A DNA stretch of 64,000 nt. Source: Flectonema sp. DT1601. Lineage: Eukaryota; Euglenozoa; Diplonemea; Diplonemida; Diplonemidae. Below are positions 28,929-52,814 of this stretch, piece after piece; position 1 is the first letter of the stretch, and the number at the start of each line of letters is the position of its first letter. Both the position numbers and the translations under genes were made by a program. The notes below the pieces were generated by a model that worked only from the letters and a program-made list of their open reading frames with translations, had not been told where the DNA came from and ran no database searches. Location of the stretch: assembly GCA_964019425.1 (NCBI GenBank), contig OZ025826.1:248001-312000 (forward strand). Reading direction: 5' to 3'.

Positions 28929-31900
28929 TTACCTTCCTGTTAGTACTGCTAGTTCGTCCAAGGCAGTGACAAAGTTTAACATCTTTCGTTGGTTATTCGG
29001 TAAGTAACAGTCTTCTAGAGAACATGGTTCTTCTCCTTCTTCGTTTATCATAGGATCGATGTACTTGTCTCTTAAGAATTCCACGCACCAGTGTTCACAT
29101 AATAAGGCCACATGATGTGGTGTTGCCCTTGCATCTTTACAGAAAATGCATTTCTCATTTTGTCCCTTGAGTTTCAAGGATCTGCAGTGTCCCACTCTAA
29201 AGCGTGACATGATCACTTCTTCCGGTCTGGTGAGCTCATCAATGTATGGAGGGTGCCTTACCTCTCCTGGCCCTAACCAGTTCTCCCGTTTTCTCCGCTT
29301 GTGGAAGGTCATCATCGTTCCCATATCAAGTTGAGCGGGTAGTTGTTTAATAATTACATCCTTATAAGGTGGATCATCCTTCAGGCCTGCTGCATACTTC
29401 GCAAGCTGGTCTGCTACTTCATTGTATCGTACATTTCTGTGCGCTGGCACATACTGTACGTTAATTTGAACACCCTTCCTCTCTAGCTTCATAGCTAACT
29501 TCCAGATGTCTTTATTCATTGGGGACCTTTGTTTGTATGGTCCTTGTTCCAATGCCTGCATGACTGACATCGAATCAGTCAACAGGTGCGTCGTTGCTGT
29601 TGGACATTCTCGTTCCTCCTTCGCTGCTTGAACAAGATTCTCCATCGCCAATTTTACAGCGATCTGTTCTGTCCTGTAGGAGGAACCCGCCACCGGTATT
29701 TTGTATCCAAGTAGACACGTCTTGCCTTTGTCTACTATAACCACAGCAGCAGCTGCATTCGTCATGTAGGTCTTAGACTTGTGTCTTATCGACCCATCCG
29801 TGTAAACTCTCGTGTCTTGAGCAGGTAAGTCTGCTTCACTCCGTTTCGCCTCGTCTTTGTCACCTGGGTAAGTGAACTTCATCGCATTAGTTTCTTTCCA
29901 CGGTGGTAGCGTGTAGTGCTCCGGATTTACTTCTTGGCTTATGATACTTCTGTTTATGTCAAGACCAGGGATCCCAGATATATAGTAATTCCAGACAGTC
30001 CATCCCCATATCGTTTTTGGTGGGTTCTCTTCCATTCTTTTTGTTTTTGTCAGTTCATGTGCTGGTAGGTGTGGACTGAGCTTGAATCGTTCATATGTTC
30101 TGCACATCTTGTATTGGATGTGTTCCTTTAGTCGTGGAGTGTCTGCCTCTTCGTACAGTCTTGTTAATTCTGTGCTCCGCAGGCATCCAGTGACCAGCCT
30201 CACTGTTCTGTTTATAATTAATTCCAGTTGCTGGAGAAAGTTGCTTGTTAGTACCCAAGCAAAGCTCTCAACACCATAAAGGATCCTTGCTAGGACCACC
30301 GTCACTAGGATGCTAATCAGCGTTCTCTTCCTACAGCCTATCCGGGTAAGTCTAGTCAGCAAGCCAAGACCTCTAGATGCAGCTATCATCATTTTCCCCA
30401 TCTGTGACTCGAATGTCAGGTTCTCGTCATAGTGTACTCCCAGGTATCTTACAACTTTCGACTTATGTACTTTCCGTCCAGTTGCAAGTGCGAATCCGTG
30501 AAGTCCTGGCCCCACTGTTTCCAACATCTTATCTATTTCCCCCCGATTGTGAACTTTCTTTAGTTGGGGGAAGCGCTGAGCATTCATCTTTAGTGTTTTT
30601 ATTACTGTTGGTTTGTTCGGCAGCTTTGTCTTTATTCTATGTGGCGGCACCACGTACAAGTGAGTGACAGCATAGTCTTCCTTCTTTTCTACTGTTGTTG
30701 TGCCATCGTCTTTCACAAGGTTTCTTATCTGTTCTGCTGTGGCCACAACATATTTAAAAGTATGCTCTTCAGAGTACACCACAACTGGGGACTTGTCCTG
30801 CGTTCTGTTCGGCTTCACATGAATGTATTCAGTTTTGCCAGGGTTCTTATTAATTTTTATTTGGGAGTCTAATGCCCATTCCTCAAAGATTCGTACCGCT
30901 TCATTGACTCGATCCTCCAGACGGTTGATGGTATCGGATGCGATAACTATCCCAACATCGTCAGCAAAGACGGTTGGCTCAAACTTCTCCATTTTCTCTA
31001 TTAAATCGTTTATAAATATCGAAAAGAGCTGGGGGCCCAGCACGCTTCCTTGTGGTACACCCACTTGTATGTTTTGGAAATTACCTTTTGTTCCGTTCAC
31101 CCTCGTTGTGATTTTTCTTCCGGTCAGATAGTTTTGTACCCACCTCAGATACCTTGTTGGTAACCCTGCGGTCATCATCTTGTCCATAAGAGTTTTTGGC
31201 TGTACCGCGTCAAATGCCTTTTGTAGATCAAAGGTGATTAGTATTGCTTCCTTTCCCCTGTCCCTAGCACTGAGAAGCCGGTCAGTTACGATGCATAGGT
31301 TTTCTGTAGCATCTCGTCCGCGTTTGTAGGCCGCCTGTCTTGGGTTCATCGTCTTATTTAATAAATGATGCATGCGTTCAACGATCATCCTCTCAAAGAG
31401 CTTCGCAATAGAAGAGGTGAGTGTTATCGGTCTATAAGAGAGAACTTGCTTTTTGTCCTTATCTGGTTTTAATATGGGTATGACCATACCGCTTTTCCAG
31501 CACCTTGGTACAGCTGATCGTTGCCATGACAGGTTAAACAGTCGCAACAGTTGTTTGAGAAAGGCTTCCGGCAGTTGTTTGATCATAGAATTCCATATCT
31601 TGTCGGGTCCCGGTGCTTTCTTTTCCTTCGTTTTTGTGAGCTGTCTCACCAGTTCCGACATCCCAAATTCCTCATCATTTTCATCCGGTCGTTCCGAAAT
31701 TGTCTCCATTTCCCCATCTTTCGGGAATTGGTTTGCGTACGTTTCAGTAAAAGCATTTGCTATTTCCTGTGAATCAGTTAATTCCCTCCCTTTGTGTGTT
31801 ATGTTACTGATCGCATGATCGATCGTTCTACCTTCTAGCTGTTTGACTTTCCGAAAGGCCCACCGATAATCTTTTCCCGACATATCACATTCGATAATGT

Positions 31901-32849
31901 TCTGTTTTACCTTTCGGATTCCTTCTGCTATAGCATCCGTAGTTGTTTTATCCGGATCCGTCTCAGTCATTAACTCCTCAAGTTCAGGGTCCCTCACTGT
32001 GAAGGCACCACCTACTTCTTTGTTATATCCTGGTATGGCCCTTCCCGCTGCCTTTAATATTTCATTGTTTATTCTTGCTCCCAGTTTTTGGACTGTTTTT
32101 ATATGTTCCAGCTTGGGTGCTGCAGCTTGCAATATTCTTCTGTAGTATTCCCAGTCGGCACAGTGCCATTTCCATTTCCAATTGTAAGTTTTCTGATGTT
32201 GCTCTTGAGTCTTTATTTCTTCGATGATTATTTTGAGTGGCTGATGGTCGCTACCCCACCCTCTCATAATTTTAACTTCTGCTTCCATCGTGTTGTCCAA
32301 GGCTACAATGTCTGGGGATGTCAGGCTTAGCGGTCTCGTGTGTTGTTGAGGGTTGTTAATAACTTTCATTGCAGCTTCCAGTGACCAATTATAGAAGCTT
32401 ATACCAGTAGTGTTCTTATTTCCATTAGACCATGTCGGATGGTGTCCATTTATATCACCTGCAATTAATGTGCCGAGTTCTGATTTAATCTTCCAGGTTG
32501 TTGCCTTGATTTCAGGCGGGTGGTAAACATTATGTATTATAAGAGGTGGATTAGACTGTAATTCTACTGATAGTATCTCAGTTTGGTCAAATGAGATGTC
32601 GTTGAGTTTAGTAATCGCATTTTTAAGATCATTCCTTACCAATGTAATGAGCCCACGATGTCCCATCTTGGTGGTGCTGTCTCTTCTGTAAGTTTTGTAC
32701 CCGTCAACAGAGAAGGGCTTGTCATCGGTTAACCATGTTTCTTGTAGTAGTATTATTTCAGGTTTTTCTTCTTTGAGAGCCCAATTCAGTTTGAAGTAGT
32801 TTTCTGGTTTCAGAACTGAGCGAATGTTATTTGACCAAATCACAATCAT
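28929..32849 (-). CDS. LINE-1 ORF2: endonuclease, reverse transcriptase, RNase H
   Basis: 1,306 residues, start MIVIWSNNIRS. The AP-type endonuclease shows LQETWL, AGDINGHHPTW and GSDHQPL. The reverse transcriptase shows APGPDKIWNSMIK, SYRPITLTSSIAKLFER, FDLQKAFDAVQP, GVPQGSVLGP and the catalytic FADD. The RNase H domain has VYTDGS, a Glu in SSYRTEQIA, LLTDS and PAHRNVRYNEVADQLA. A CxxC...H...C knuckle (CIFCKDARATPHHVALLC) ends it. This order defines I/ingi-group LINEs. The ATG overlaps the ORF1 stop as ATGA (32846-32849), implying termination-reinitiation. No stop breaks the frame and all catalytic motifs are present. Confidence 0.95.
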   Translation of the reverse strand: MIVIWSNNIRSVLKPENYFKLNWALKEEKPEIILLQETWLTDDKPFSVDGYKTYRRDSTTKMGHRGLITLVRNDLKNAITKLNDISFDQTEILSVELQSNPPLIIHNVYHPPEIKATTWKIKSELGTLIAGDINGHHPTWSNGNKNTTGISFYNWSLEAAMKVINNPQQHTRPLSLTSPDIVALDNTMEAEVKIMRGWGSDHQPLKIIIEEIKTQEQHQKTYNWKWKWHCADWEYYRRILQAAAPKLEHIKTVQKLGARINNEILKAAGRAIPGYNKEVGGAFTVRDPELEELMTETDPDKTTTDAIAEGIRKVKQNIIECDMSGKDYRWAFRKVKQLEGRTIDHAISNITHKGRELTDSQEIANAFTETYANQFPKDGEMETISERPDENDEEFGMSELVRQLTKTKEKKAPGPDKIWNSMIKQLPEAFLKQLLRLFNLSWQRSAVPRCWKSGMVIPILKPDKDKKQVLSYRPITLTSSIAKLFERMIVERMHHLLNKTMNPRQAAYKRGRDATENLCIVTDRLLSARDRGKEAILITFDLQKAFDAVQPKTLMDKMMTAGLPTRYLRWVQNYLTGRKITTRVNGTKGNFQNIQVGVPQGSVLGPQLFSIFINDLIEKMEKFEPTVFADDVGIVIASDTINRLEDRVNEAVRIFEEWALDSQIKINKNPGKTEYIHVKPNRTQDKSPVVVYSEEHTFKYVVATAEQIRNLVKDDGTTTVEKKEDYAVTHLYVVPPHRIKTKLPNKPTVIKTLKMNAQRFPQLKKVHNRGEIDKMLETVGPGLHGFALATGRKVHKSKVVRYLGVHYDENLTFESQMGKMMIAASRGLGLLTRLTRIGCRKRTLISILVTVVLARILYGVESFAWVLTSNFLQQLELIINRTVRLVTGCLRSTELTRLYEEADTPRLKEHIQYKMCRTYERFKLSPHLPAHELTKTKRMEENPPKTIWGWTVWNYYISGIPGLDINRSIISQEVNPEHYTLPPWKETNAMKFTYPGDKDEAKRSEADLPAQDTRVYTDGSIRHKSKTYMTNAAAAVVIVDKGKTCLLGYKIPVAGSSYRTEQIAVKLAMENLVQAAKEERECPTATTHLLTDSMSVMQALEQGPYKQRSPMNKDIWKLAMKLERKGVQINVQYVPAHRNVRYNEVADQLAKYAAGLKDDPPYKDVIIKQLPAQLDMGTMMTFHKRRKRENWLGPGEVRHPPYIDELTRPEEVIMSRFRVGHCRSLKLKGQNEKCIFCKDARATPHHVALLCEHWCVEFLRDKYIDPMINEEGEEPCSLEDCYLPNNQRKMLNFVTALDELAVLTGR

Positions 32850-33817
32850 GATTGGCCAGTGTTGTTGTTTTTATTCGTACTTGTTGTTCGACCGAGACCA
32901 ATAGTGGCTTCCATCCGCTTCACCGATTCTACCAGACTTGTGATGGCTATGGCCATGTTGTTATAGTTCTTTTCGTTTTTATTAGCGGCCTCCGTCAGGG
33001 TTGCGACCACCTTCGTTAGATTGTAGAGTCCCTCCTCTAATCTTTTCTGCAGATCTGTAACATCATTCTTAAGTTGTGCCATCATGTTGTCAGTCTTTTC
33101 TCTGAGTTCCTTAACACTGCTCTCAGAGTTTTGTACTTCAGTTGTTGGATTTTTCGGAGTCGGTAACGTCTTTTTGACTGCGGCTGCATACGAAGTCTTG
33201 GCCTCGCGGTATTTCACAACGACGGGTTTCTTCACTTCCACTTCCACACTTTCTAATTTTTCAATTAGGATGACTACCTCACCACATTGGACAAGTTTCG
33301 TTTCCGGCTTCTTGTCCAACGCGATGATGAAGTCACCCCGATCCATCCTTACAAATTTAGACCTCAGTCCCAACTGCGATAGAATATTCTGGAGCCTGTT
33401 GCCCCAGCTGTAAGGCGCTCCGCTGAGACGGTGTAGCCCTTCGCCGTATACAGTGCTGGCGTACTTCCCAGCTCCCTTCCTTACTTTGTCGACGTCCTTT
33501 GTTTTAATCACTCTCAACCCTATTTTGCCGTGGCTGATGGTGAGTCCGTAACAGAGGTCTTGTTGGGCTTTCAGAATGCCAACTGCCTCATCATTCGTCG
33601 TCTTGCGGTCCAGCCACACGGTACTGTACTTGGTTGCTGACTGTCCCAGCGTTTGTTTGATTCGGAAGTAGACCTTGTCTGTTCCCGAGTTCTTCAGTAA
33701 CTTTACTGCTGAGTCTACATCCGTTGGCAGGATTGTTAACTCCGCAAAGTCTCCCTCTACTGATCTGTACGATCTTTGATCCACCCTTCCGTGTTGTGCA
33801 ACAACCGCTTTTATCAT
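32846..33817 (-). CDS. LINE-1 ORF1: RNA-binding type protein
   Basis: About 323 residues from ATG 33817 (MIKAVVAQHGR); the frame extends further upstream but into flanking AT-rich DNA. The body has CYGLTISHGKIGLRV, a pattern that recurs in LINE-A ORF1 as CYGLRVHPDCNTEVRI, so the two ORF1 proteins look related. A coiled-coil region follows (about residues 225-300, KELREKTDNMMAQLKNDV), then a Thr/Asn-rich tail. No CCHC zinc knuckle is visible. By analogy to other LINE ORF1 proteins it would bind element RNA. Confidence 0.85.
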   Translation of the reverse strand: MIKAVVAQHGRVDQRSYRSVEGDFAELTILPTDVDSAVKLLKNSGTDKVYFRIKQTLGQSATKYSTVWLDRKTTNDEAVGILKAQQDLCYGLTISHGKIGLRVIKTKDVDKVRKGAGKYASTVYGEGLHRLSGAPYSWGNRLQNILSQLGLRSKFVRMDRGDFIIALDKKPETKLVQCGEVVILIEKLESVEVEVKKPVVVKYREAKTSYAAAVKKTLPTPKNPTTEVQNSESSVKELREKTDNMMAQLKNDVTDLQKRLEEGLYNLTKVVATLTEAANKNEKNYNNMAIAITSLVESVKRMEATIGLGRTTSTNKNNNTGQS

Positions 33818-33894
33818 GGCTGTTACTGCTGAGGGCCTCTTGCCAAAATAAAAGTTTTTTACCCAATAAATAATATTTTTATACAATAATAAAA

Positions 33895-36534
33895 GTTTTT
33901 TCAGAAGGGGTAGGAATACTTGCGAGCAAATCTCACTGCTGGTCAATGCGCTTCATGGTGCGAGAAAAGGTGGTAAGAGTTCGATACTGCTCTCTTTCGA
34001 CTTCACTGAGGCATTTGATAGGATAAATCATGTTAAACTGATTGCTAAAATGGTGGCGATGGGGATTCCTTCACCATTCATCGGATGGGTCGCTAACTTT
34101 CTGACGCGAAGGAAGGCAAAGGTTAGTGTCAATGGCAATCTGAGCGCATACAGAACTGTGACGAAAGGTGTTCCGCAAGGGTCGATTGTTGGACCTCTCC
34201 TTTATCTGATATATGTCGACGACCTGGCTAAGAAACTTGAGAAGACTGGATGTGTTTCAGCACTCTACGCAGACGACACAGCTTGTGTGGTCTCGAATAA
34301 GGATTTTAAAGTAACTTACCGAATGGCGCAATTAGTCCTTGGGTTAGTAGATCGTTGGTGCAAAGATAATGACATGGCACTGTCGGTTTCGAAGACCTGC
34401 GGGATGCCGGTGGACTGTCCTAGGAATATGTATTGGAGGCTGGGATTCCCCAGAACGTCAGGAGAGAACTTCTTTCGGATCAGTAGGGAGGAACTGGCTG
34501 GGATGATTCGGTCAAATGAAGAAGGTAGGCCTTTACTTGGAAATGGGGCGATGATCCTCAAGCTGGGTGATACGGAGGTTACGAAGGCAAGTGAACTTCT
34601 AGAAATGATGCCAGTGGGACCGGATCCGACCTGGGTGAAGTTGCTGACTGCCGTACTCATGCCGATGGTGGATAGTGTAAAGTACTTGGGTGTCCATATT
34701 GACGATGACCTGAAATATGGTACACAAGTGGATAAACTACTGGATGAGACGAGAAAGGGACTTGTTCTGCTTCGAAAGTTAGAGCTATTCAACTTTGATT
34801 TCAAAACGCTGAACATGATCAAGAACTTATACATCCTCTCAAGGATTCTGTATGGGCTTGAGAGCTATGGACCTTTCTTGACAGATGAACAGCTAAAACC
34901 TATTGACCTGAATCTGAGGAAGATAGCAAGAAAGATCACCGGCTGCGGCTTCAACACAAGGTCCCTTCCGTTACTGTGGGAGGCGAACATACTCCCGATG
35001 AGACTGCAGATTGAGAAGCAGGCCAGGATAGCTTTGTTCAGGTATCGATCACTGGATTGGGTTCCTTCTACGAAGGGGATCGCTAGTGGAACTTGGAGTT
35101 CAACATTACCGGCTGAGGACCGTAATATGGAGATCCAAGGGATTGTCATGCCTGACAGCATCGAGCCATGGATAGATGTTCCGAACCTGGAGATATCTTG
35201 CGGATATGGACATTCGAAGACTGGTGTTGCTGAAGTGGACAAGGCTAAGTTCGAGGAGTACTGCAGCGAACTTAGGCCATGTACCTCGTCAATTTTTGTT
35301 GACGGATCCCACGACCCTGTCAACTACACGGCAGGCGCAGCAGCAGTGCAGATCACGCCGTGTGAACGGACCATGGCATCGAGACTAGTTGCAACGGAAA
35401 GTAGTTATAAAGCTGAACAGGTAACTCTGAAGCTGTTAATAAGTGAATTTGGAAAAGCAACCTCTGTCTTGGGTCCCAGATTTGGAATCACGAGAGTCTT
35501 CAGTGATTCTAAATCCAATCTGGATGAGCTGCGTGGTGGAATTGCGGCTCAGAGGAAGCTGAACTCTCTCTCGATACTAGAAGGGATAAGAAAATTAGAC
35601 TCATTCGTACACCTTCAATTCATCCCAGCTCACGTGGGAATTGAACCGCATGACAAGGCAGATGAACTGGCGAAAAAGATCTCAAAAGATGTTAAGAGCA
35701 AGCCGGTGTCAACGACTATGGACTTCTTCGCACATAAGTCAAGGATAGCGAGGGAAGCTAACAGAAAGCTGTTTGGTAAGATTATGGAGGGTTCAACAAG
35801 GGCGAAACCACCGATCAAACGGGTGATGCTTAGGCAGTATCTTGATGCTACCGGAGGCCTGAGAGCGGCTCGATACCCCAAGGACATGCTGAGAGAATCA
35901 GAGATAAGGATAGCCAGGTTCAGAACGGGCTCTCACCCCCTGCTCAGGGTAAATGAACTACCGATAAAGTGCCCCTTCTGCAAAAGAACAGACTCTTCTG
36001 CCCGACATCTAATATTTGATTGCGAGGATGGTGACGTGGTCCGCATTAGAGAAGGAACAATTAGATCAAACATTCAGGAAGCGAGAATCTCCGAGACCAA
36101 ACTAAATCTTTCAATAATGTTTGCGACGAGAAATCTTCATGCCCTAGCCGGCTACTTATGGCATTTGGAACAACGAACAGGCTTATCAAACTGTTAACTG
36201 ATTGGTAGTTGCTAATTCATTAGTATCATTCTCCCTTATCACACTCCTTAATCATCTCCTAATTTCTCTGAGGACATCCGCAGAGCTTCATGGCTCGTAG
36301 GTAACCCAGTGGTCTTTGGCCACCGTCCCTGTACTGATCCTTCGCTTTATATTAACTGTGTCTTGAGATTCCTATCCGGGGAAGTCCTCCAACGGACTCA
36401 AGACAGTTGCGCTTGTTTTTACTTATATACTTTATCAAAAAATAAGAAGGGCAAGAATGCTCAGAATGAAGAAAAATAAAGTGGAAAGACAGGGGGGATG
36501 TGACTAAATAAATAAATAAAAAAGTTTTTTTGGC
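33895..36534 (+). mobile_element. LINE-D: 5'-truncated LINE inserted 16 bp upstream of tRNA-Arg
   Basis: The plus-strand element starts abruptly inside the reverse transcriptase (FRRGRNTCEQ, 33900). It continues through RT and RNase H to the stop at 36197, a 3' UTR of about 305 nt, and a TAAA-type tail at 36505-36523. An aaagtttttt block stands on both sides (33892-33901 and 36521-36530), consistent with a target duplication of about 10 bp. The tail ends 16 bp before the tRNA-Arg gene, same strand. The 5' end abuts LINE-1 head to head across about 50 bp of AT-rich DNA. Confidence 0.88.
33900..36197 (+). CDS. LINE-D ORF2 fragment: reverse transcriptase and RNase H
   Basis: The open frame enters at 33900 with no start codon of its own. 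Visible are LLSFDFTEAFDRINH, GVPQGSIVGPLLYLIYVDDL and the catalytic YADD. A long thumb/connection region follows (DSVKYLGVHIDDDLKYG). RNase H shows IFVDGSHD, SSYKAEQ, FSDSKSN and PAHVGIEPHDKADELA, then CPFCKRTDSSARHLIFDC. The RT resembles that of LINE-A but is clearly a different subfamily. The endonuclease and ORF1 are missing, so this copy cannot move on its own. Confidence 0.92.
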   Translation, partial: FRRGRNTCEQISLLVNALHGARKGGKSSILLSFDFTEAFDRINHVKLIAKMVAMGIPSPFIGWVANFLTRRKAKVSVNGNLSAYRTVTKGVPQGSIVGPLLYLIYVDDLAKKLEKTGCVSALYADDTACVVSNKDFKVTYRMAQLVLGLVDRWCKDNDMALSVSKTCGMPVDCPRNMYWRLGFPRTSGENFFRISREELAGMIRSNEEGRPLLGNGAMILKLGDTEVTKASELLEMMPVGPDPTWVKLLTAVLMPMVDSVKYLGVHIDDDLKYGTQVDKLLDETRKGLVLLRKLELFNFDFKTLNMIKNLYILSRILYGLESYGPFLTDEQLKPIDLNLRKIARKITGCGFNTRSLPLLWEANILPMRLQIEKQARIALFRYRSLDWVPSTKGIASGTWSSTLPAEDRNMEIQGIVMPDSIEPWIDVPNLEISCGYGHSKTGVAEVDKAKFEEYCSELRPCTSSIFVDGSHDPVNYTAGAAAVQITPCERTMASRLVATESSYKAEQVTLKLLISEFGKATSVLGPRFGITRVFSDSKSNLDELRGGIAAQRKLNSLSILEGIRKLDSFVHLQFIPAHVGIEPHDKADELAKKISKDVKSKPVSTTMDFFAHKSRIAREANRKLFGKIMEGSTRAKPPIKRVMLRQYLDATGGLRAARYPKDMLRESEIRIARFRTGSHPLLRVNELPIKCPFCKRTDSSARHLIFDCEDGDVVRIREGTIRSNIQEARISETKLNLSIMFATRNLHALAGYLWHLEQRTGLSNC

Positions 36535-44391: not shown

Positions 44392-44416
44392 TCTATACTA
44401 CCGAGGATCTAAAAAC

Positions 44417-44417
<1 letters not shown>
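44390..44417 (-). repeat. 28-nt footprint of the tRNA-Asp 5' end
   Basis: Identical over 28 nt to 36718-36745: the first 18 nt of tRNA-Asp plus 10 nt of its upstream flank. It stands between the A-tail of LINE-A and the 5' end of LINE-B, as expected if LINE-B entered inside the tRNA gene next to LINE-A and the target duplication rebuilt the tRNA on its other side. Confidence 0.9.
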
Positions 44418-44452
<35 letters not shown>

Positions 44453-44924
44453 GTTACACTCGTCTGTGCTTCCAGACTCTTTGTTTTTGTTCTTTTCACT
44501 TCTTTGTTTTGTCTTTCTTTTATACTTTCTTTTGGTTTAAGTCTGACAAATTGGAAAACACGGGAAACATAGGTAGGCTCCGCCTGAGGACGTAAGAAGA
44601 GCGGCAACGGAAAAATAAATGGTCACGCGTCCTTGAAATTGGACACATGAAGCTAATTCGGTTACCATTCCTACCATCGATAAGGAAAAACAAAGAATCG
44701 AGCATATAACTAGAGCGGTGGTCAAAGACCACTTGAACAGCCCGAAGGCCTGCCCTCAAGAGAAATTTATAAGGAGAATAGGAGAAGAAGGAGACAGGAG
44801 TGTTGGAAGAGACACTGCGACAACACCGAAGGTGATGTGCAGTTACCCAACCAGGAGATGATTGATAATGATGAAAATACTAAAATAATAACAAATTGAT
44901 ATTGGCGACTACATGTCACCTACT

Positions 44925-47900
44925 TTATTTCCAAAGTCTAAGGTTAGATGTTTGTTCCATCCACCTTATGATCAACGCGAGTGATGGAAGCCACGCCAAA
45001 GTGAAGAGAGCTTCAAGGTTAGGAATTTCGTTGGCAATAATAAGTTCTCGATCGCGATCCCACTTGCCGGTCAGTGTTGAGAAGCCCAGGATTTTGAACC
45101 TGGCAGAGTCGAGTTTGGGAGATTGACATCCCTGCAGCAGGTGAACCTGTGAGGACGGTTCGCCACAAAATGGGCAGTCGATTTTCTTGCGCCAGTTCTG
45201 AATTAGCGGGTGACATCCTGTCCGGAAGTTCGCTATCCGTATCTCGTCGGCTCTTTCCATCCCAGGAGGGTATTTAACGGAACGGCCTCCGATGAGGTGT
45301 TTGTAGCAGGTGTAACCACTCACGTTAAGCAGATCCTTTTTGATGCAGCGCTTAACATGTGATGATCGCGAGAAGTAAGTGCCTTTGACTAGCACAGGTC
45401 GGATGTTCTTGTTGTGCGCTGCTTCCTTTGCAAGCGCGTCAACTTCATCGTGAAACTCGATTCCAATGTGTGAGGGGATGAATTGCAAATGCACTTTCAT
45501 TTCACACATGCGCAGGTATTCTAGTATCTTGAGGGACTCAGTATTCCTCTGTCTGCACCTTCCACCCAGCAGTTCATCCAGAAGGGATTTTGAGTCCGTG
45601 AATAGCCTTACAGATCTCATTGAAGGATCTTTGCTAAACACTGTTCTCAGATGTCTAGCCGCGTTCTTCAGAGCATGTTGTTCAGCCCTGTAGCTGCAGT
45701 CAGCTTGATAAAGCCTAGACGCGTAAGCAGATCGAAGGCCGCTACGTGACTTGGCAATATGAGCCGCACCGGCCGCGCCGGAAGCAGAGTAGGAGCCATC
45801 GCAGTTGATTACCATGTCGACAGGAGGCAACGTTCCAATGTACGACATGAATTTTTCTTTGTCCACCGCAGGGTTCGCGGACTTCGGAAATCCGCAGCCG
45901 TTGCTAATCCTAAGGTTTGTCGGAGATACCCAGGGTTCCATCGAGTCAGGCTGTACAAGGCACTGGCTTTCACGCTGGCTGTCAATGCCAGGAAGGAGGC
46001 CAGCCCAGTAGCTTTGGGTTGAGGCGAGTCTGTTGGTACTAGGTATCCAAGTCATGGCTTTATACCTGTAGTACGCTATCTTGGTTTGCTTTTCAATCTG
46101 ACGTTTAAAAGGAAGCATGTCCGCTTCCCACAGTAGAAGTTCTCTCGGTGTGCACCTGCTGCATCCAGTAACCAGCCTGGCAACCTTCCTCAGTTCGAAA
46201 TCAATACTATCAACGCTGTTGCTTATCAACCAACCAAAGCTATCGAGCGCATAAGAGATTCTCGCAGTTACGTAAAGGTTCTTGACCATATTTAGCGTTT
46301 TGTAGTCAAGATCATACGGTTGAAGGCATTGAAGCAGAGATATTCCCTTTTTCAGTTCTTCATGAATCTTAGCCACCTGTTTGTGGAAAGTGAGTCTGTC
46401 GTCGATGTGAACTCCGAGGTATTTCACTGAGTCCACGATTGGCAACAGAAATGCGGTTTTAAATCTGGCTTTCACCACCATCACGTTGTCTTCGAGAACA
46501 ATATTCCGCAACATCACGTTGTCAAGTTCGTCTTGCGTTTTGATCGGAGTTCCATCAACCTCGAGAATAGTTTCGCCGCTTTGAAGCGTGGGTCTAGAAG
46601 AGTTTAAGTTGATACTCTTTTCAATGTCACTATAGTCCATTTTGATAACGTTTTCCACAACAGATCTGGAAAATAGTAATTCGCGATTGCAGGTGTCGTT
46701 GAGAATCGTATCCTTCGTACGGACTTTCATCTTAAGAGCACAGGTCTTTGAGACCGACAGGGCCATGTCGTTGTCAGAACACCATTGATCCACTTTATCA
46801 AGTATTATTTGAGCATTTGAAAGAGCTTCTTCCATGTTATGTCCAGATACTACACATGCTGTATCATCCGCATACAGAGCAGACGTCGTTGTTTCTTTCT
46901 CCAGTTCCAAAATCTTGCAGAGGTCATCAACGTAGATAAGATAGAGAAGAGGACCCAGGATCGATCCCTGTGGAACCCCCTTAGCCAGAGTACGGAATTC
47001 GCTAAGATAACCATTCGCTTCAACTCTAACCTTCCTGTTTGTAAGAAAGTCTGTGATCCATCTGATAATAACATTCGGAACACCCATCTTTACCAATTTT
47101 AATAAAAGTATCTTATGGTTGATCCTGTCAAACGCAGCAGTAAAATCAAACGATAAGAACACCGATCTCTTTCTCTTCATGTGCATCCTTACGACGGCAT
47201 CTACCAAAACGGTGATCTGTTCGCAGGTATTTCTCCCCCTTCTGAATCCAGCCTGTAGTGGGCTGAGTGACGAATGTTTAGTGAGCCAGTGCATGAGTCG
47301 GTCATACACGAGCCTCTCCGCAAGTTTCCCAACAACCGATGTGAGCGTAATGGGTCTGAAACTCTTCAGTTCATTTCGAGGTTTTCCAGCCTTGAACATA
47401 GGCTTGATTAAACCTTGTTTCCACTGGTACGGTACTTTTGAAGTCTTCCAGGAAGTGTTAATAATTCTCAAGAGATATTCCACTGTTGCCGGAGTGAAGT
47501 TTTTGATCATCTCATTGTGAACTCCATCAGGTCCTGCAGCCTTGCGGGTCTTCAGGTTCTTAATCGCAGCTTTAATTTCAGCCATTGTGAAATCACAGCA
47601 AATATCCATTTCATTATCACCTTCTGAGAGTGCGGGGGCCTCTAGCGATAATATTTCCGATTTCGAGACAAACAGGTCCAAGAATGCTGATGGGAGATCG
47701 CAGTCAGAGATGTTGTTGACACTGATATCTTTACCAGCATCTTGCTGCAGTTCTTTGATCTTCTTAAACGCAAAGGCAAAGTTGTTACCCTTGTCAAGTT
47801 GATCACGTAGGTGGACACCCTTCGATTTGGTGGAATCTGGAGTTGACGTCTTCCACTTTCGTCTCCGTTTCCCTTTGAAAAGGACACGTCGACGAATGAA

Positions 47901-48836
47901 TTTAGCCGCTACTTCATGCAGTATGTTGTTAAAGAGCTTAGCATTCGCAGTTGCATCGTTGGAGAGTTTCGATTTTCTAATTCTCTTATCGAGCATATTT
48001 CCAAAGCAGTTCCAGTCCGTAGACTTGAAGTCCCACACTACGCGTTTCTTAGAACCTATCGTGGCACGTGTAAGTTGACACATGGGATCCAGTACGGTGT
48101 AGAGAGGTCGGTGATCAGATCCATGTTTATTATCTTCTCTAATTACAGAGAATTCTTCCAGAATCATCGAGTTTTGAAAAAATACTACGTCCGGCGAGGT
48201 ACCGCCCCCCGGGATATTAGGAAAAGGCCTTGTGATTGACCCCATCTTGTTGGCTACCAGTAGATCATTGTGTGCTGCCCATTCATGTAGAGTAGAACCT
48301 GCTGGCGTCGATTTTGATGACCACACCGGATGATGGGCATTAAAGTCACCCGCGACGATTGCTTTCGTTGAGACTGGAAGATCTGACTTTCTGATCTTGC
48401 ATCCCGGGGGAGCATAAATATTTAAGATGTCAATCTTTCCACCTATGTTGACCTTTACAACTTCAACATCATTTAAGTGAGGCGGAAGTACGATATCAGA
48501 ACGCTGCTGAGTGTGGCATTTCTTCACCATAGTAATAACCCCACCACCCCGTGTTGCCCTATCATTCCGATAGGTAAAATAATCCGTGTGTGAGACTACA
48601 TCTTTTGTCCAAGTTTCTTGCAGGCACAGTACGTCAGGCGCATAGGCATTGAGCAGCTTGTGTATGTAGGCACCTTTGTTCCCCATTGATCGACAGTTCC
48701 AGCTTAGTAGTGATATGAGGGAGTCGTCAGGGCCAGGGTTGCGTTCGACATCGCCTGCCTGAAGCAGCAGTTCACGAGCCGTATTCTTTTCTGTGAGTGA
48801 GTTGGTCGGATTTAAATCATCGTCATCTTCATCTAG
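44925..48836 (-). CDS. LINE-A ORF2: 2A leader, endonuclease, reverse transcriptase, RNase H
   Basis: The frame is open directly from the ORF1 stop. It has an acidic leader (LDEDDDDLNPTNSL), the 2A motif (48729-48755), then SLLSWNCRSMGNKGAY. The first in-frame ATG is at 48686. The endonuclease shows LQETWT, AGDFNAHHPVW and GSDHRPL. The RT shows AGPDGVHNEMIKNF, FRPITLTSVVGKLAERL, FLSFDFTAAFDRINH, GVPQGSILGPLLYLIYVDDL and YADD. RNase H shows VINCDGSYS, CSYRAEQ, LFTDSKS and PSHIGIEFHDEVDALA. The CPFC...H...C knuckle is near the end. After 2A cleavage the enzyme would begin with Pro-Asp-Asp-Ser. All catalytic motifs are present. Confidence 0.95.
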   Translation of the reverse strand, partial: LDEDDDDLNPTNSLTEKNTARELLLQAGDVERNPGPDDSLISLLSWNCRSMGNKGAYIHKLLNAYAPDVLCLQETWTKDVVSHTDYFTYRNDRATRGGGVITMVKKCHTQQRSDIVLPPHLNDVEVVKVNIGGKIDILNIYAPPGCKIRKSDLPVSTKAIVAGDFNAHHPVWSSKSTPAGSTLHEWAAHNDLLVANKMGSITRPFPNIPGGGTSPDVVFFQNSMILEEFSVIREDNKHGSDHRPLYTVLDPMCQLTRATIGSKKRVVWDFKSTDWNCFGNMLDKRIRKSKLSNDATANAKLFNNILHEVAAKFIRRRVLFKGKRRRKWKTSTPDSTKSKGVHLRDQLDKGNNFAFAFKKIKELQQDAGKDISVNNISDCDLPSAFLDLFVSKSEILSLEAPALSEGDNEMDICCDFTMAEIKAAIKNLKTRKAAGPDGVHNEMIKNFTPATVEYLLRIINTSWKTSKVPYQWKQGLIKPMFKAGKPRNELKSFRPITLTSVVGKLAERLVYDRLMHWLTKHSSLSPLQAGFRRGRNTCEQITVLVDAVVRMHMKRKRSVFLSFDFTAAFDRINHKILLLKLVKMGVPNVIIRWITDFLTNRKVRVEANGYLSEFRTLAKGVPQGSILGPLLYLIYVDDLCKILELEKETTTSALYADDTACVVSGHNMEEALSNAQIILDKVDQWCSDNDMALSVSKTCALKMKVRTKDTILNDTCNRELLFSRSVVENVIKMDYSDIEKSINLNSSRPTLQSGETILEVDGTPIKTQDELDNVMLRNIVLEDNVMVVKARFKTAFLLPIVDSVKYLGVHIDDRLTFHKQVAKIHEELKKGISLLQCLQPYDLDYKTLNMVKNLYVTARISYALDSFGWLISNSVDSIDFELRKVARLVTGCSRCTPRELLLWEADMLPFKRQIEKQTKIAYYRYKAMTWIPSTNRLASTQSYWAGLLPGIDSQRESQCLVQPDSMEPWVSPTNLRISNGCGFPKSANPAVDKEKFMSYIGTLPPVDMVINCDGSYSASGAAGAAHIAKSRSGLRSAYASRLYQADCSYRAEQHALKNAARHLRTVFSKDPSMRSVRLFTDSKSLLDELLGGRCRQRNTESLKILEYLRMCEMKVHLQFIPSHIGIEFHDEVDALAKEAAHNKNIRPVLVKGTYFSRSSHVKRCIKKDLLNVSGYTCYKHLIGGRSVKYPPGMERADEIRIANFRTGCHPLIQNWRKKIDCPFCGEPSSQVHLLQGCQSPKLDSARFKILGFSTLTGKWDRDRELIIANEIPNLEALFTLAWLPSLALIIRWMEQTSNLRLWK
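48729..48755 (-). other. 2A ribosome-skipping motif in LINE-A
   Basis: The codons read GDVERNPGP, preceded by ELLLQA. This satisfies the DxExNPG|P consensus and the usual upstream Leu-rich context of viral and retrotransposon 2A peptides. Skipping would separate ORF1 plus leader from the endonuclease-RT. Confidence 0.93.
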
Positions 48837-48839
48837 TCA
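48833..48839 (-). promoter_or_regulatory. Single in-frame UGA in a read-through context (UGACUAG)
   Basis: The ORF1 stop TGA (48839-48837) is followed by CTAG. UGA-CUAG is the best-documented stop read-through context in eukaryotic genes. ORF1 and ORF2 share the frame on either side. A point mutation of a sense codon is the alternative. Confidence 0.75.
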
Positions 48840-50486
48840 GTTGAGGTCAAAATCCGAGTCATCATCTTCCATTTCAACATCGCCGTTCTTATCACCTTCT
48901 TGTTTAACAGCAGATTCAGTGGGTGGTGGAGCTGATGCTGGTGTGGGTGCTGGCGCTGGTGTCGGTGCTGCTGCCGTCTGATGTGGTAGCTGAGTTGGTT
49001 GTTGTGGTTGAGGAGCTGTCTTCTGTCTCTTCAGGGTTCCTGTCAGTTTTTGAGCCGCGTCGCCTGGGTTGTAGGTTGGGCCTAGCGGTTTTCTGTCACT
49101 TTTCTTAACTTCCTTGTTTATCACAAGGTACTCATTGGTGCCTATGCTCACGAAGTTGGGAGGCTGCGTGTTTGAAATCGCCACAATCGTAGTGCTTCCA
49201 CCTTTGTTAAACGATGCGACCACTGTGTGCTCCCAGTTGTGAGAGGACTTCATAAAGTCGCTGATCTGCGCTGTTGAGAATTTCCGTATCGCCATTGATT
49301 TTATAATGTACCTGTCACCGGAAGGCAGTGCAGGTTTGAGTGACGCGCTTAACTTAATACGCACTTCAGTGTTGCAGTCGGGATGAACTCGGAGTCCATA
49401 ACAGGTTTTGAACTTACACAGGTAGAATTTACCTTCGAAACCTTCCAGTATTGATGTCTTGGACTTTGCTGCCAAGAATCCAAGATCGTTATTGAATTGA
49501 AGAGTTGGCCAGACATCGCTTCCATTTGACCAGCTCGGGTTTCTGACAAATACATTCTTAGGTTTGTCGGTCTCCGGGTCGTTATTGTTAAACTCCAGAA
49601 TCTTGTGTACTTGGTTTCTGGGAATTCTAATAGCCATTGAGGAATGTGAATCATTTCGTTTGTAACTGAAAGGGGCTGCATTAATCTTTTTCTTTTTTAG
49701 CAGTTCCTTTGTTTTGATCGTTAGATCTTTTTCACTTGATTTGCCCCAATCCTGAACAAACAAGACGGGGTCGGGTGTCGGATGTTGAATTTCGGATGTG
49801 GCTTTGGAAAAATCTTCACCACAGATATGCGTGTAGAAGACTCGTCTGATTTCGCAGACACCACCCTTTTTGATCACCGGTATGGCGACAGGCACCGTGC
49901 TTTTGGTTAGCGGTACTTTGCTGATTGCAGCCCATCGACCACTCTTCTTTGTCTGACGGAGAGCTTCCCAGTCCTGTTTAGAGCGTACTAAAACAAGACC
50001 CGATGCGAGATTGTTGGTAGCATTCGCTGCTACGTCGTAGTTGATTGTAGACACAGTGCCCGCCCACGCGCCGTGTACATGCCATTCCGGGTAGCTTGCT
50101 TTAGCATTTCCCTTTGTGGTTTGTTTAGTCGATGTTGATGATGGTACAGGCAGCGGAAACGAAAAGGTTGATTGTTTAGGTGCCGATGTTGTCTGTTGAT
50201 TAGAAGCTGTAGACGCCTCTGTTGTCGGTTGATTGCTGCCTGCGGTTGGGGCCGTCGCTTCGGTTGCCGTCGCGGTCGCATCCGTCCCACCACCCACTTC
50301 GGGAGTGTCCGGTCTTCTTCTTTTCATCTCAGGGTTCCCACCTTCCGACCCCGTCACGAACTGGATAACCTCCATCAGGAGATTCGCCACTCTTTTCTCT
50401 TTCTCATACTCGGGGATCCCATCATCTCCCACCATCTTCAGGAGGTTCATAGCCTCCGATACTAACCTCCTCAGGTTGTCTCTCAT
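48837..50486 (-). CDS. LINE-A ORF1: putative RNA-binding protein
   Basis: 549 residues from ATG 50486 (MRDNLRRLVSEAMNLL); an upstream in-frame TTG at 50546 is not used here. Parts: a short helical N-terminus, a Thr/Ala/Gln-rich linker, a globular centre including KFYLCKFKTCYGLRVHPD (related to LINE-1 ORF1), a Pro/Ala/Gln stretch, and an acidic end (EMEDDDSDFDLN) before the UGA. No CCHC knuckle is visible. Expected role: binding the LINE RNA. It shares the frame with ORF2. Confidence 0.85.
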   Translation of the reverse strand: MRDNLRRLVSEAMNLLKMVGDDGIPEYEKEKRVANLLMEVIQFVTGSEGGNPEMKRRRPDTPEVGGGTDATATATEATAPTAGSNQPTTEASTASNQQTTSAPKQSTFSFPLPVPSSTSTKQTTKGNAKASYPEWHVHGAWAGTVSTINYDVAANATNNLASGLVLVRSKQDWEALRQTKKSGRWAAISKVPLTKSTVPVAIPVIKKGGVCEIRRVFYTHICGEDFSKATSEIQHPTPDPVLFVQDWGKSSEKDLTIKTKELLKKKKINAAPFSYKRNDSHSSMAIRIPRNQVHKILEFNNNDPETDKPKNVFVRNPSWSNGSDVWPTLQFNNDLGFLAAKSKTSILEGFEGKFYLCKFKTCYGLRVHPDCNTEVRIKLSASLKPALPSGDRYIIKSMAIRKFSTAQISDFMKSSHNWEHTVVASFNKGGSTTIVAISNTQPPNFVSIGTNEYLVINKEVKKSDRKPLGPTYNPGDAAQKLTGTLKRQKTAPQPQQPTQLPHQTAAAPTPAPAPTPASAPPPTESAVKQEGDKNGDVEMEDDDSDFDLN

Positions 50487-50549
50487 AATTGCTTTTCCTG
50501 TGAAACGTACCCACTGATTCTTACCAATATTTGGTTGCGAAATCAATAA

Positions 50550-50584
50550 AGTACAGAAAGTACAGAAGTACAGAAGTACAGAAA
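50550..50584. repeat. AGTACAGA tandem repeat
   Basis: Four units of 8-9 bp (agtacaga) just upstream of LINE-A ORF1. It could mark the 5' end of the element or be a promoter repeat. Confidence 0.8.
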
Positions 50585-50600
50585 ATTTTTTTTATTTATT

Positions 50601-51752
50601 GGGCACCGTCTTCTTTTGTTCATTGTTGTTTTCACTTCAATATTGAATTTTTTTGGTTGCCAAAGAGAAACATGTGTTTGTCTTGTGACTGGATGATATA
50701 GGGATATGATATCATGTTAGTCCCCTCACCACTCTATAGCATGATCATGGAGATCATTTGTGCCACAGCTGAGCCTTGGGAACTCAGAATGGGGTTTAGA
50801 CTAGTCTTCATGTCCAGTTGTTTTATTAGTAACTACCTTTAGATTTTAACTATCATTCAATTGCCACAAGTTATCCCTGTCCTCTGACTAACATGAAGCG
50901 AGACCAAAGGATGCTTTCACACCGTAGATCGGTAGTGAAGATCTGTTTCGAGCAAGCTTTTACCCTTATGCGTGAGATTTCTGTTCTCACTGAGCTTGCC
51001 TTAGGACATCTGTCCCCTAACAAACATCAGGTCAAATAACAAATCCTGATGATGATTTTTATCACTCCATCTCTTCCGATTGAACACTTCTCAATGTAAT
51101 TAGTTTTACTTTAAAGTACCGAATTGGTTAAGATTATGTCACATTCAAGTTATCTAATTTTCCTGCTTTAAAAAAAAAAAAAATCGTCTCTGGATGGGAA
51201 AAAGCTGACGCACTAAGTCGAGTTGATGGATTGATAGCAGCCTGCACATTTATGTATGTTCTGTTCAGCAAAAATGACCATAACCAATCGAAGAGAATCA
51301 TCAAGTGAGTAACAAAAGCTATGAAAAAAAGGGGGAAAGAAAAAAAAAAAGAAGCAAAGGGGGAAAAAAAAAAAAAAGCACGGAATAGAACCTGATAAGA
51401 AATATACGCGAAACACGATTAAAGTCCACACACAGAACACCGAGACGATGTCTTAGTATAACACAGAAAGTCTTGCGAGATATGGCAACCCTCCATGATT
51501 AGTAGAAATTCTTATCACGTTGGGTGGGGATGACATCACGATGTTTGTGTTGCAGGTGTCAGAAAGGTACTCCGACTTGCAATTAAAGCACTTTTTACAA
51601 AAGCTGTCTGTCCACACTGGTTTATTGAAGATCTGAAGGTACTTCAGCATACTTTGCAATAAAACCTTCTTTCTGTCTGTCTGTCATACACCGGCTACAA
51701 AAAATAAAAAATACAAATAATTTAGTAACCCCTTTGTCACAAACTACAAGTC
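50601..51752. other. Non-coding region between LINE-A and the 7TM-like gene
   Basis: About 50690-51070 has even base composition without homopolymers, unlike host spacers, and could be LINE-A 5' UTR or another transposon relict. I could not match it to any element here. From 51168 onward it is A-rich host spacer with several poly(A) runs. No gene is supported. Confidence 0.5.
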
Positions 51753-52814
51753 TCAATCCCACTCTCCAGTTCGAACCTCTGTGCGATTACAATTTTGAAG
51801 ACATTCGTAATACTCCATCTCGTGAACTCTTTTAAACTCATATTTCAAGAACACAATAAAACAACAAAGAGCAAATGCGTGAAGCAAAACTATGATATCC
51901 AACCACGAGAAGATGGACAACGGACACGGTGACCATTTTATTGCGTCCTTGAGAATGTATTTTGCCCAAGTGTGAAAAGGTATACTAGCAGGCAAGTCAC
52001 AAATACAACCAGTCAACAATGTCATACGAGACAGTAACGACGGAGAGCTACTTGGAGATGCATCAGTTGCTCGTGGAAAGCAAACAACGATCATAAGAAC
52101 AAGCAGAGGTACTCTTTGAAGTCCTATAGACACCATTAAAACCCAATATGAATCAGCATACACACTCCCATCTGGAATATTTGGAGTTGCCCACCAAGCA
52201 GTAATGATGTGAATAATTGCAAGTACTGCCAAACCTACTTCAGCAGTAAACAGAGCACTACAACACGTATGTCGTCTACTTGCAGTGCTAGAACCCTCTG
52301 ACACAGCTGTATTCCTACGAGAACCCGATCTGTAGTAATATTGATATAGCAGTGCGAGTGTCAGAAACATAACATAAATACTGTCAACTGTCCAGGATAC
52401 GAACTGAAGTATTGCAACAGCGTGAACCTTGTCATGAATTGCAGGAAATCCAAACAAAACAGACTCAACAACACCTCTAACACCACATCCAATAAAATAT
52501 AAAACCCAATAAGAATTACTAATAGAGGCAGTGTGTAGTGATCCGCTTTCGTCTCTGTTTCTTTTGAATAGTGAGGAGATTCCCCACTTCACAGCAGCTC
52601 CAATTGACGAGTTCTCTCCCAACCACCAGAGCATAAAATTATACCTTACAACCACCACCATGGCAACTACGAACGCCAAAACGGAAAAAACCGAACACAA
52701 CAATGTCGTTGAGGGGAAATCCAAGCTAATGGAAGTAGACTCCGGGCATTTTGTTAAGCCAATATTGTTCGTCAGCACATTTAACGAACCAGTTGGGGAC
52801 GGGGTATAGGGCAT
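51753..52814 (-). CDS. Seven-helix-type membrane protein, function unknown
   Basis: 353 residues from ATG 52814 (MPYTPSPTGSLNV). The N-terminus of about 35 residues is polar, and roughly seven hydrophobic helices follow (TTLLCSVFSVLAFVVAMVVV, NSYWVLYFIGCGVRGVVESV, DSIYVMFLTLALLYQYYY, AEVGLAVLAIIHIITAWW, SYWVLMVSIGLQRVPLLVLM, a helix near CICDLPASIPFHTW, LDIIVLLHAFALCCFIVFL). The C-terminus is charged and cytosolic-looking. The layout resembles GPCR-like or THH/TOM-type proteins, but no family motif is clear. A strong acceptor (cttttccccctcaccag, ending at 52831) sits 16 nt upstream. Confidence 0.8.
   Translation of the reverse strand: MPYTPSPTGSLNVLTNNIGLTKCPESTSISLDFPSTTLLCSVFSVLAFVVAMVVVVRYNFMLWWLGENSSIGAAVKWGISSLFKRNRDESGSLHTASISNSYWVLYFIGCGVRGVVESVLFGFPAIHDKVHAVAILQFVSWTVDSIYVMFLTLALLYQYYYRSGSRRNTAVSEGSSTASRRHTCCSALFTAEVGLAVLAIIHIITAWWATPNIPDGSVYADSYWVLMVSIGLQRVPLLVLMIVVCFPRATDASPSSSPSLLSRMTLLTGCICDLPASIPFHTWAKYILKDAIKWSPCPLSIFSWLDIIVLLHAFALCCFIVFLKYEFKRVHEMEYYECLQNCNRTEVRTGEWD

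Follow-up and report, generated by a model that had tools for sequence, protein, structure and literature searches.

In-frame UGA-C stop codons followed by a 2A peptide between ORF1 and ORF2 of diplonemid LINEs suggest polymerase expression by read-through and StopGo

2A peptides are known in LINEs of trypanosomes and sea urchins (PMC4981915; PMC5972666), as an earlier sequence-only reading of the present locus had noted for L1Tc, and the 2A of L1Tc from Trypanosoma cruzi is stated to be active both in vitro and in vivo (PMC4748587). The LINEs described here resemble these elements in having APE endonuclease, reverse transcriptase and probably RNase H, with the 2A in frame with the enzymes, but differ from them in their separate ORF1, which is closed by an in-frame UGA ahead of the 2A. 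With SART1 and L1 they share the order of ORF1 and ORF2 on a single RNA and, presumably, a low output of ORF2, whereas the stop and start of SART1 and L1 overlap or are separated by a spacer (PMC5972666), and here no start precedes the 2A and both ORFs lie in one frame. Gag-stop-pol elements of the MuLV type and, as a doubtful case, Tca2 likewise carry an in-frame stop between a structural ORF and the polymerase, as a means of ratio control (PMC2194720); the present elements differ in being APE LINEs with no common pseudoknot or stem found 3' of the stop and with a proposed separation by 2A instead of a protease. In a yeast reporter, no read-through was obtained at the gag-UGA-pol junction of Candida Tca2 (PMC2194720); a UGA in frame ahead of pol is thus not necessarily read through when assayed in a heterologous system. 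The vertebrate genes OPRL1, OPRK1, AQP4 and MAPK10 carry UGA-CUAG (PMC4132726), as do two of our LINE families (A and D), while the product here would be a polymerase and not a short extension, and the other LINE families have CTTG, CTCG, CATG or CGGC after the stop. Separately, both the 2A of LINEs and the read-through of retroelements are already known; in the open-access literature on recoding in LINEs, neither this combination nor read-through was reported for a LINE among the matches listed.

The window, that is, the whole stretch of 64,000 nucleotides that was analysed, carries on its minus strand a whole LINE copy of family A (44422..50581, all coordinates of this element being on the minus strand), which runs from CTGTACTT repeats at an approximate 5' limit to a poly(A) end. 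ORF1 (48840..50486) starts with ATG and encodes 549 aa (MRDNL...DFDLN). As the sequence-only reading had stated, ORF1 and ORF2 share one frame and are separated by exactly one TGA (48837..48839), the proposed read-through site, with CTAG directly 3' of it (48833..48836), its first C alone being common to all families read. The minus strand reads CTC AAC TGA CTA GAT..., followed by ELLLQAGDVERNPGP at 48773-48729. An in-frame spacer of 21 codons without an in-frame ATG (48774..48836) leads to the 2A/StopGo peptide ELLLQAGDVERNPG/P (48729..48773), whose last P codon (48731-48729) ends where the motif had been proposed to end. The earlier count of 27 codons, with the first 2A residue at 48755, holds for the G of GDVE (codon 28) and not for the start of the motif, the E of codon 22 (48773). 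The predicted NPG/P skip site follows residue 35 past the stop. The ORF2 frame (44925..48836) has 1303 codons and then TAA at 44927-44925, and contains an APE-type endonuclease domain (48111..48707; PF03372/PF14529) and a reverse transcriptase domain (46716..47378; PF00078); the first endonuclease motif, SWNCRS, comes after the 2A, nine residues past the predicted N-terminal proline. The two Pfam domains, together with the poly(A) 3' end and the occurrence of 5'-truncated copies, identify the element as an APE-type LINE. The C-terminal RNase H, a mark of the I/Ingi-like LINE group, gave no Pfam match (PF00075) on the window ORF2 and was matched in its homologs P0005 and P0006.

Searched at the DNA level with the family-A element, the genome (89.5 Mb, 92 contigs) yielded at least 40 scored matches, of which 39 belong to family A and one, at 70% identity, to family B. 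By identity, the family-A matches fall at 99-100% (19), 89-90% (3) and 85-86% (17), copies of the main subfamily being 99-100% identical across their longest match. TGA-CTAG was kept in all 39 family-A junctions found, and of 30 copies read by letter across the junction 29 have an intact NPGP, so that the conservation which the earlier reading had put forward as a check is borne out; the exception, L025, has NLGP and two internal TGA. In a set of 21 copies with long flanks (the window copy and 20 others), 12 have an ORF1 of 549-553 aa together with an ORF2 of 1303 codons, one has an ORF2 of 1218 codons, and for eight no start of ORF1 was found in the open frame, six of them being matches that begin within ORF1. 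Because full-length ORF1 and ORF2 persist in 12 of the 21 and copies are near-identical, elements of this layout have been copied recently.

Several observations on family A stand beside these counts. The copy number of the CTGTACTT repeats varies at the 5' ends (e.g., window 50520-50581 and L040), and head-to-tail arrays occur in L041-L043. Subfamily A2, represented by L021, has an ORF1 near A3 (L026; dS 0.29) and an ORF2 start near A1 (dS 0.048), and looks recombinant in this calculation, made on L021 out of L020, L021 and L022. Two relatives of family A lie within very long open frames (G000:C12:1506958-1508127, 4061 aa; C8:1585991-1586782, 3385 aa) and are possibly fused or under long selection; the C12 relative is 97% alike in protein against 86% in DNA. 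Directly past the poly(A), many copies meet a similarly oriented tRNA or tRNA-like gene (L034, L035, L036, L038, L039, L040, L043, L044, L045, L047, L048 and window 44422). A B-box match lies 53-88 nt past 13 of 27 distinct 3' ends, compared with a background of 1.2-1.8% of random stretches at 50-90 nt, and L039 (tRNA-Pro) adds one neighbour that the pattern missed. ARAGORN confirms three neighbours as tRNAs (Gln, Arg and Pro); an A-box pattern was left out, as it matched almost nothing, the ARAGORN-confirmed tRNAs included. The remaining 13 ends are without a tRNA-like neighbour, three of them running into another LINE copy. These positions suggest that family A is a LINE targeted to tRNA genes, in the manner of Dictyostelium elements (PMC5006619). 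Just upstream of the window LINE lies a 28S rRNA fragment (50911-51003, minus strand; Rfam RF02543, 58 bits); in Diplonema papillatum, about 3600 scattered 28S pieces have been described (PMC10161547).

The ORF1 protein has no Pfam family above the cut-off, and its protein search gave at least four homologs at E <= 0.001 among the matches listed, two of which fit A1 and A3 of the same genome while the other two are EukProt transcripts at 48-50% identity. One of these transcripts comes from Trinity gene DN1157_c0_g1, to which the ORF2 homolog P0005 also belongs, so that both ORFs seem to lie in one transcribed gene in a relative from another data set as well. The AlphaFold model of ORF1, built on an input of four sequences, has a mean pLDDT of 43.7 and its fold gave no PDB match at E <= 0.001. 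Within the model, residues ~240-300 have a beta-alpha-beta-beta-alpha order at a block pLDDT of 75-88 and could form an RRM-like domain. Between A1 and A3, ORF1 has a dS of 1.27 and a dN/dS of 0.09, values that indicate strong purifying selection, and the stop and the frame are nonetheless unchanged.

The same junction layout was found in other LINE groups of the genome. A protein search with the 2A-plus-endonuclease region as query returned at least 106 scored matches, 95 of which start at query residue 1 (37 in A, 24 in B, 29 in C/E/E2 and 5 in D). Identity to A in this region is 41-63% overall, with 56-63% for B, 43-45% for C/E/E2 and 41% for D, and at the junction C, E and E2 clearly group close together. 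Nine junctions were read by letter, as was the 2A of B, C, D, E and E2, and each group read (A, B, C, D, E, E2) shows ORF1, TGA, C, the same frame and then the 2A: AAC-TGA-CTTGAC in B (CTC in L053), AAG-TGA-CTTGA in C, AAC-TGA-CTAGAA in D, AAG-TGA-CATGAT in E and AAA-TGA-CGGCAC in E2. TGA was present at all 104 junctions examined (39 in A, 27 in B, 30 in C and E, 7 in D and 1 in E2), and the sense codon in other copies that would have spoken against a functional stop was encountered in none of them. For B, C, D and E, the counts are mostly inferred from paired patterns with NNN or TGA at the stop, which gave identical places and mismatch numbers (B 27/27, C and E 30/30, D 7/7), and the C after the stop was read by letter only in the fetched pieces. 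Since the patterns allowed up to three flank mismatches (two for A), strongly decayed copies would be missed; the 95 residue-1 matches were covered at the junction except for C6:441534, and the 104 junctions are not independent events because the groups are related by descent, C, E and E2 especially closely. Stop and skip site are 35 codons apart in A, 55 in B, 25 in C, 24 in D, 25 in E and 27 in E2. In spite of these differences in length and sequence, ORF1 and ORF2 lie in one frame in every family read, a point on which the sequence-only reading could have failed. Between the stop and NPGP, the ORF2 frame is open in all eight representatives, while 15 of 16 alternative-frame readings hold one to seven stops. 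A single in-frame stop with a conserved 2A and endonuclease beyond it is the anatomy expected of a read-through site, and the persistence of 2A and open frame at 41-63% identity lends support to the proposed interpretation of read-through followed by a 2A skip. As a separate observation, one copy of a distant LINE (L032, 8130-8430) has a degenerate 2A-like GDIHPNPGP with an in-frame stop about 20 codons upstream.

Each group has a canonical 2A, (Q/K/L/S/I)AGDVE(R/T)NPGP, with the hexapeptides LLLQAG, LLLLAG, LLISAG or LLLIAG ahead of its core. The 2A motif is defined as (D/G/C/N)(V/I)ExNPGP with a suitable upstream hexapeptide, and viral StopGo sites include an LLLLSG-like class of hexapeptides before the core (PMC12846837), which those of the LINEs resemble. 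Both motif and hexapeptide being present, separation of the products is predicted from the sequence. In the 21-codon spacer, dN/dS is 0.22 for A1-A2, 0.68 for A1-A3 and 0.10 for A2-A3, with too few sites to decide on selection.

The earlier reading had placed the read-through signal in UGA-CUAG, which holds for families A and D but not for the letters after the TGA in B (CTTG or CTCG), C (CTTG), E (CATG) and E2 (CGGC). As CTAG, the strongest context in the literature, is confined to A and D, the shared signal narrows to UGA-C, present in all eight representatives; on sequence comparison, what is common to all groups is a UGA-C in frame with the 2A. Stops are weak when the next base is C, and read-through at UGA-CUA by itself amounted to 1.5% in HEK-293T cells (PMC4132726). 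The eight representatives (60 shuffles each) have no common RNA structure 3' of the stop; seven of them have z values from -1.3 to +1.9, with E2 alone reaching -3.4, at 90 nt. Apart from two sub-threshold snoRNA matches, no other Rfam family was found near the element.

Based on this anatomy, we consider it likely that ORF2 is expressed by read-through of UGA and subsequent StopGo at NPG/P, which would free the ORF2 protein. Most ribosomes would terminate at UGA and yield the ORF1 protein, while a minority would insert an amino acid at the UGA, presumably leaky in its UGA-C setting, and would continue into the spacer and the 2A; the read-through, its rate and the residue inserted are presumed here. 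If the 2A works in this host, as we suppose, the skip would release an ORF1-spacer-2A protein and translation would proceed to a free ORF2 protein beginning with the proline encoded at 48731-48729. The outcome would be a high ratio of ORF1 to ORF2 protein, which presumably matters to the element, and an ORF2 protein that is not fused to ORF1.

The main competing explanation, termination at UGA with a restart just downstream for ORF2, is described for SART1 and proposed for L1 (PMC5972666). A contrast LINE in the same window (28929-33946, minus strand) has an overlapping ATGA between its ORF1 and ORF2 (32846..32849, minus strand) and no NPGP in its ORF2, so that both arrangements occur in one genome. 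There are also ATGs near the stop in A, C and E, yet these lie out of frame, and none of the eight representatives has an in-frame ATG between stop and NPGP or an overlapping or adjacent in-frame ORF2 start as in SART1; an in-frame ATG does occur in the spacer of one further copy, L052 of family B. The lack of such an ATG means that the 2A would be translatable only by a ribosome arriving in frame from upstream. Moreover, a 2A acts only within a nascent chain, so ribosomes would have to reach it from ORF1 without leaving the frame. Codon 51, inside SWNCRSM, is the first in-frame ATG of family A, and a start there would lose the endonuclease motif SWNCRS; a 2A kept in all groups read would be useless if the start came after it, and sharing a frame with ORF1 would be unneeded. 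Another start route is open in the EukProt relative P0006, which has a predicted start Met 28 residues ahead of its NPGP, and restart at a non-AUG codon is compatible with the data. Overall, we regard reinitiation as unlikely, and read-through followed by StopGo remains our preferred reading.

Bypass of the UGA at the RNA level, by a small intron, by editing or by a separate trans-spliced ORF2 mRNA, would fit the trans-splicing expected in Euglenozoa, and splicing has been raised for Tca2 (PMC2194720). However, a trans-spliced ORF2 mRNA would offer no in-frame ATG ahead of the 2A, inspection by eye showed no GT...AG pair on either side of the TGA that the families have in common, and the genomic copies, which are made from RNA, keep the UGA, so RNA that had lost it is not usually reverse transcribed; this makes such a bypass quite improbable. 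That UGA is not a stop at all, through reassignment (e.g., to Trp), a genome-wide suppressor tRNA or selenocysteine, would be in line with the altered codes of some euglenozoan lineages and with the UGA lying at one fixed place. Against this, TGA ends five of the 19 long ORFs checked in the window, alongside TAA and TAG, namely the ORF1s of two LINEs (family A and the contrast element) and three others. One of these three is a carnosine N-methyltransferase gene with an 86% identical homolog of the same length (405 aa); its closest matches are EukProt transcripts, one labelled 'Rhum', which we take to be Rhynchopus humris, and lower matches that bear a name come at first mainly from kinetoplastids, a single Rotaria record ranking above these, which makes a diplonemid or closely related euglenozoan host probable. 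All 19 ORFs use TGG, conserved host proteins in this small sample lack an internal UGA, neither ORF1 nor ORF2 of the window LINE has a further in-frame TGA, and no SECIS match was found at E <= 1 in 44400-51800, so that a non-stop UGA appears very improbable. Finally, elements are most often inactivated by a single stop, and a late stop mutation in a once-fused ORF could leave such a junction by chance or decay. With TGA at 104 of 104 junctions in A-E2, near-identical full-length copies that carry it and an ORF1 under strong purifying selection, the copies refute this explanation, to which we give practically no weight.

How LINEs make little ORF2 protein from a two-ORF RNA is partly understood, with reinitiation as the usual answer. 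If read-through and StopGo operate as proposed, further implications, which we put forward tentatively and with some doubt, are that UGA-C alone may be leaky enough to serve as a LINE-wide polymerase switch without RNA structure in a diplonemid host, that read-through with StopGo may be the ancestral way of expression in a whole euglenozoan LINE clade, and that some LINEs elsewhere, recorded as single-ORF elements with a 2A at the N-terminus, may possess an in-frame ORF1 that has gone unnoticed ahead of a leaky stop. In LINEs, the 2A is said, in work of 2014 attributed to Luke, to accompany the absence of ORF1, and the layout of leaky stop and 2A bears on the reported idea that LINE 2As replace ORF1. 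A leaky stop combined with a 2A would be a simple and portable alternative to reinitiation, uniting in these LINEs two recoding events that are known separately in viruses.
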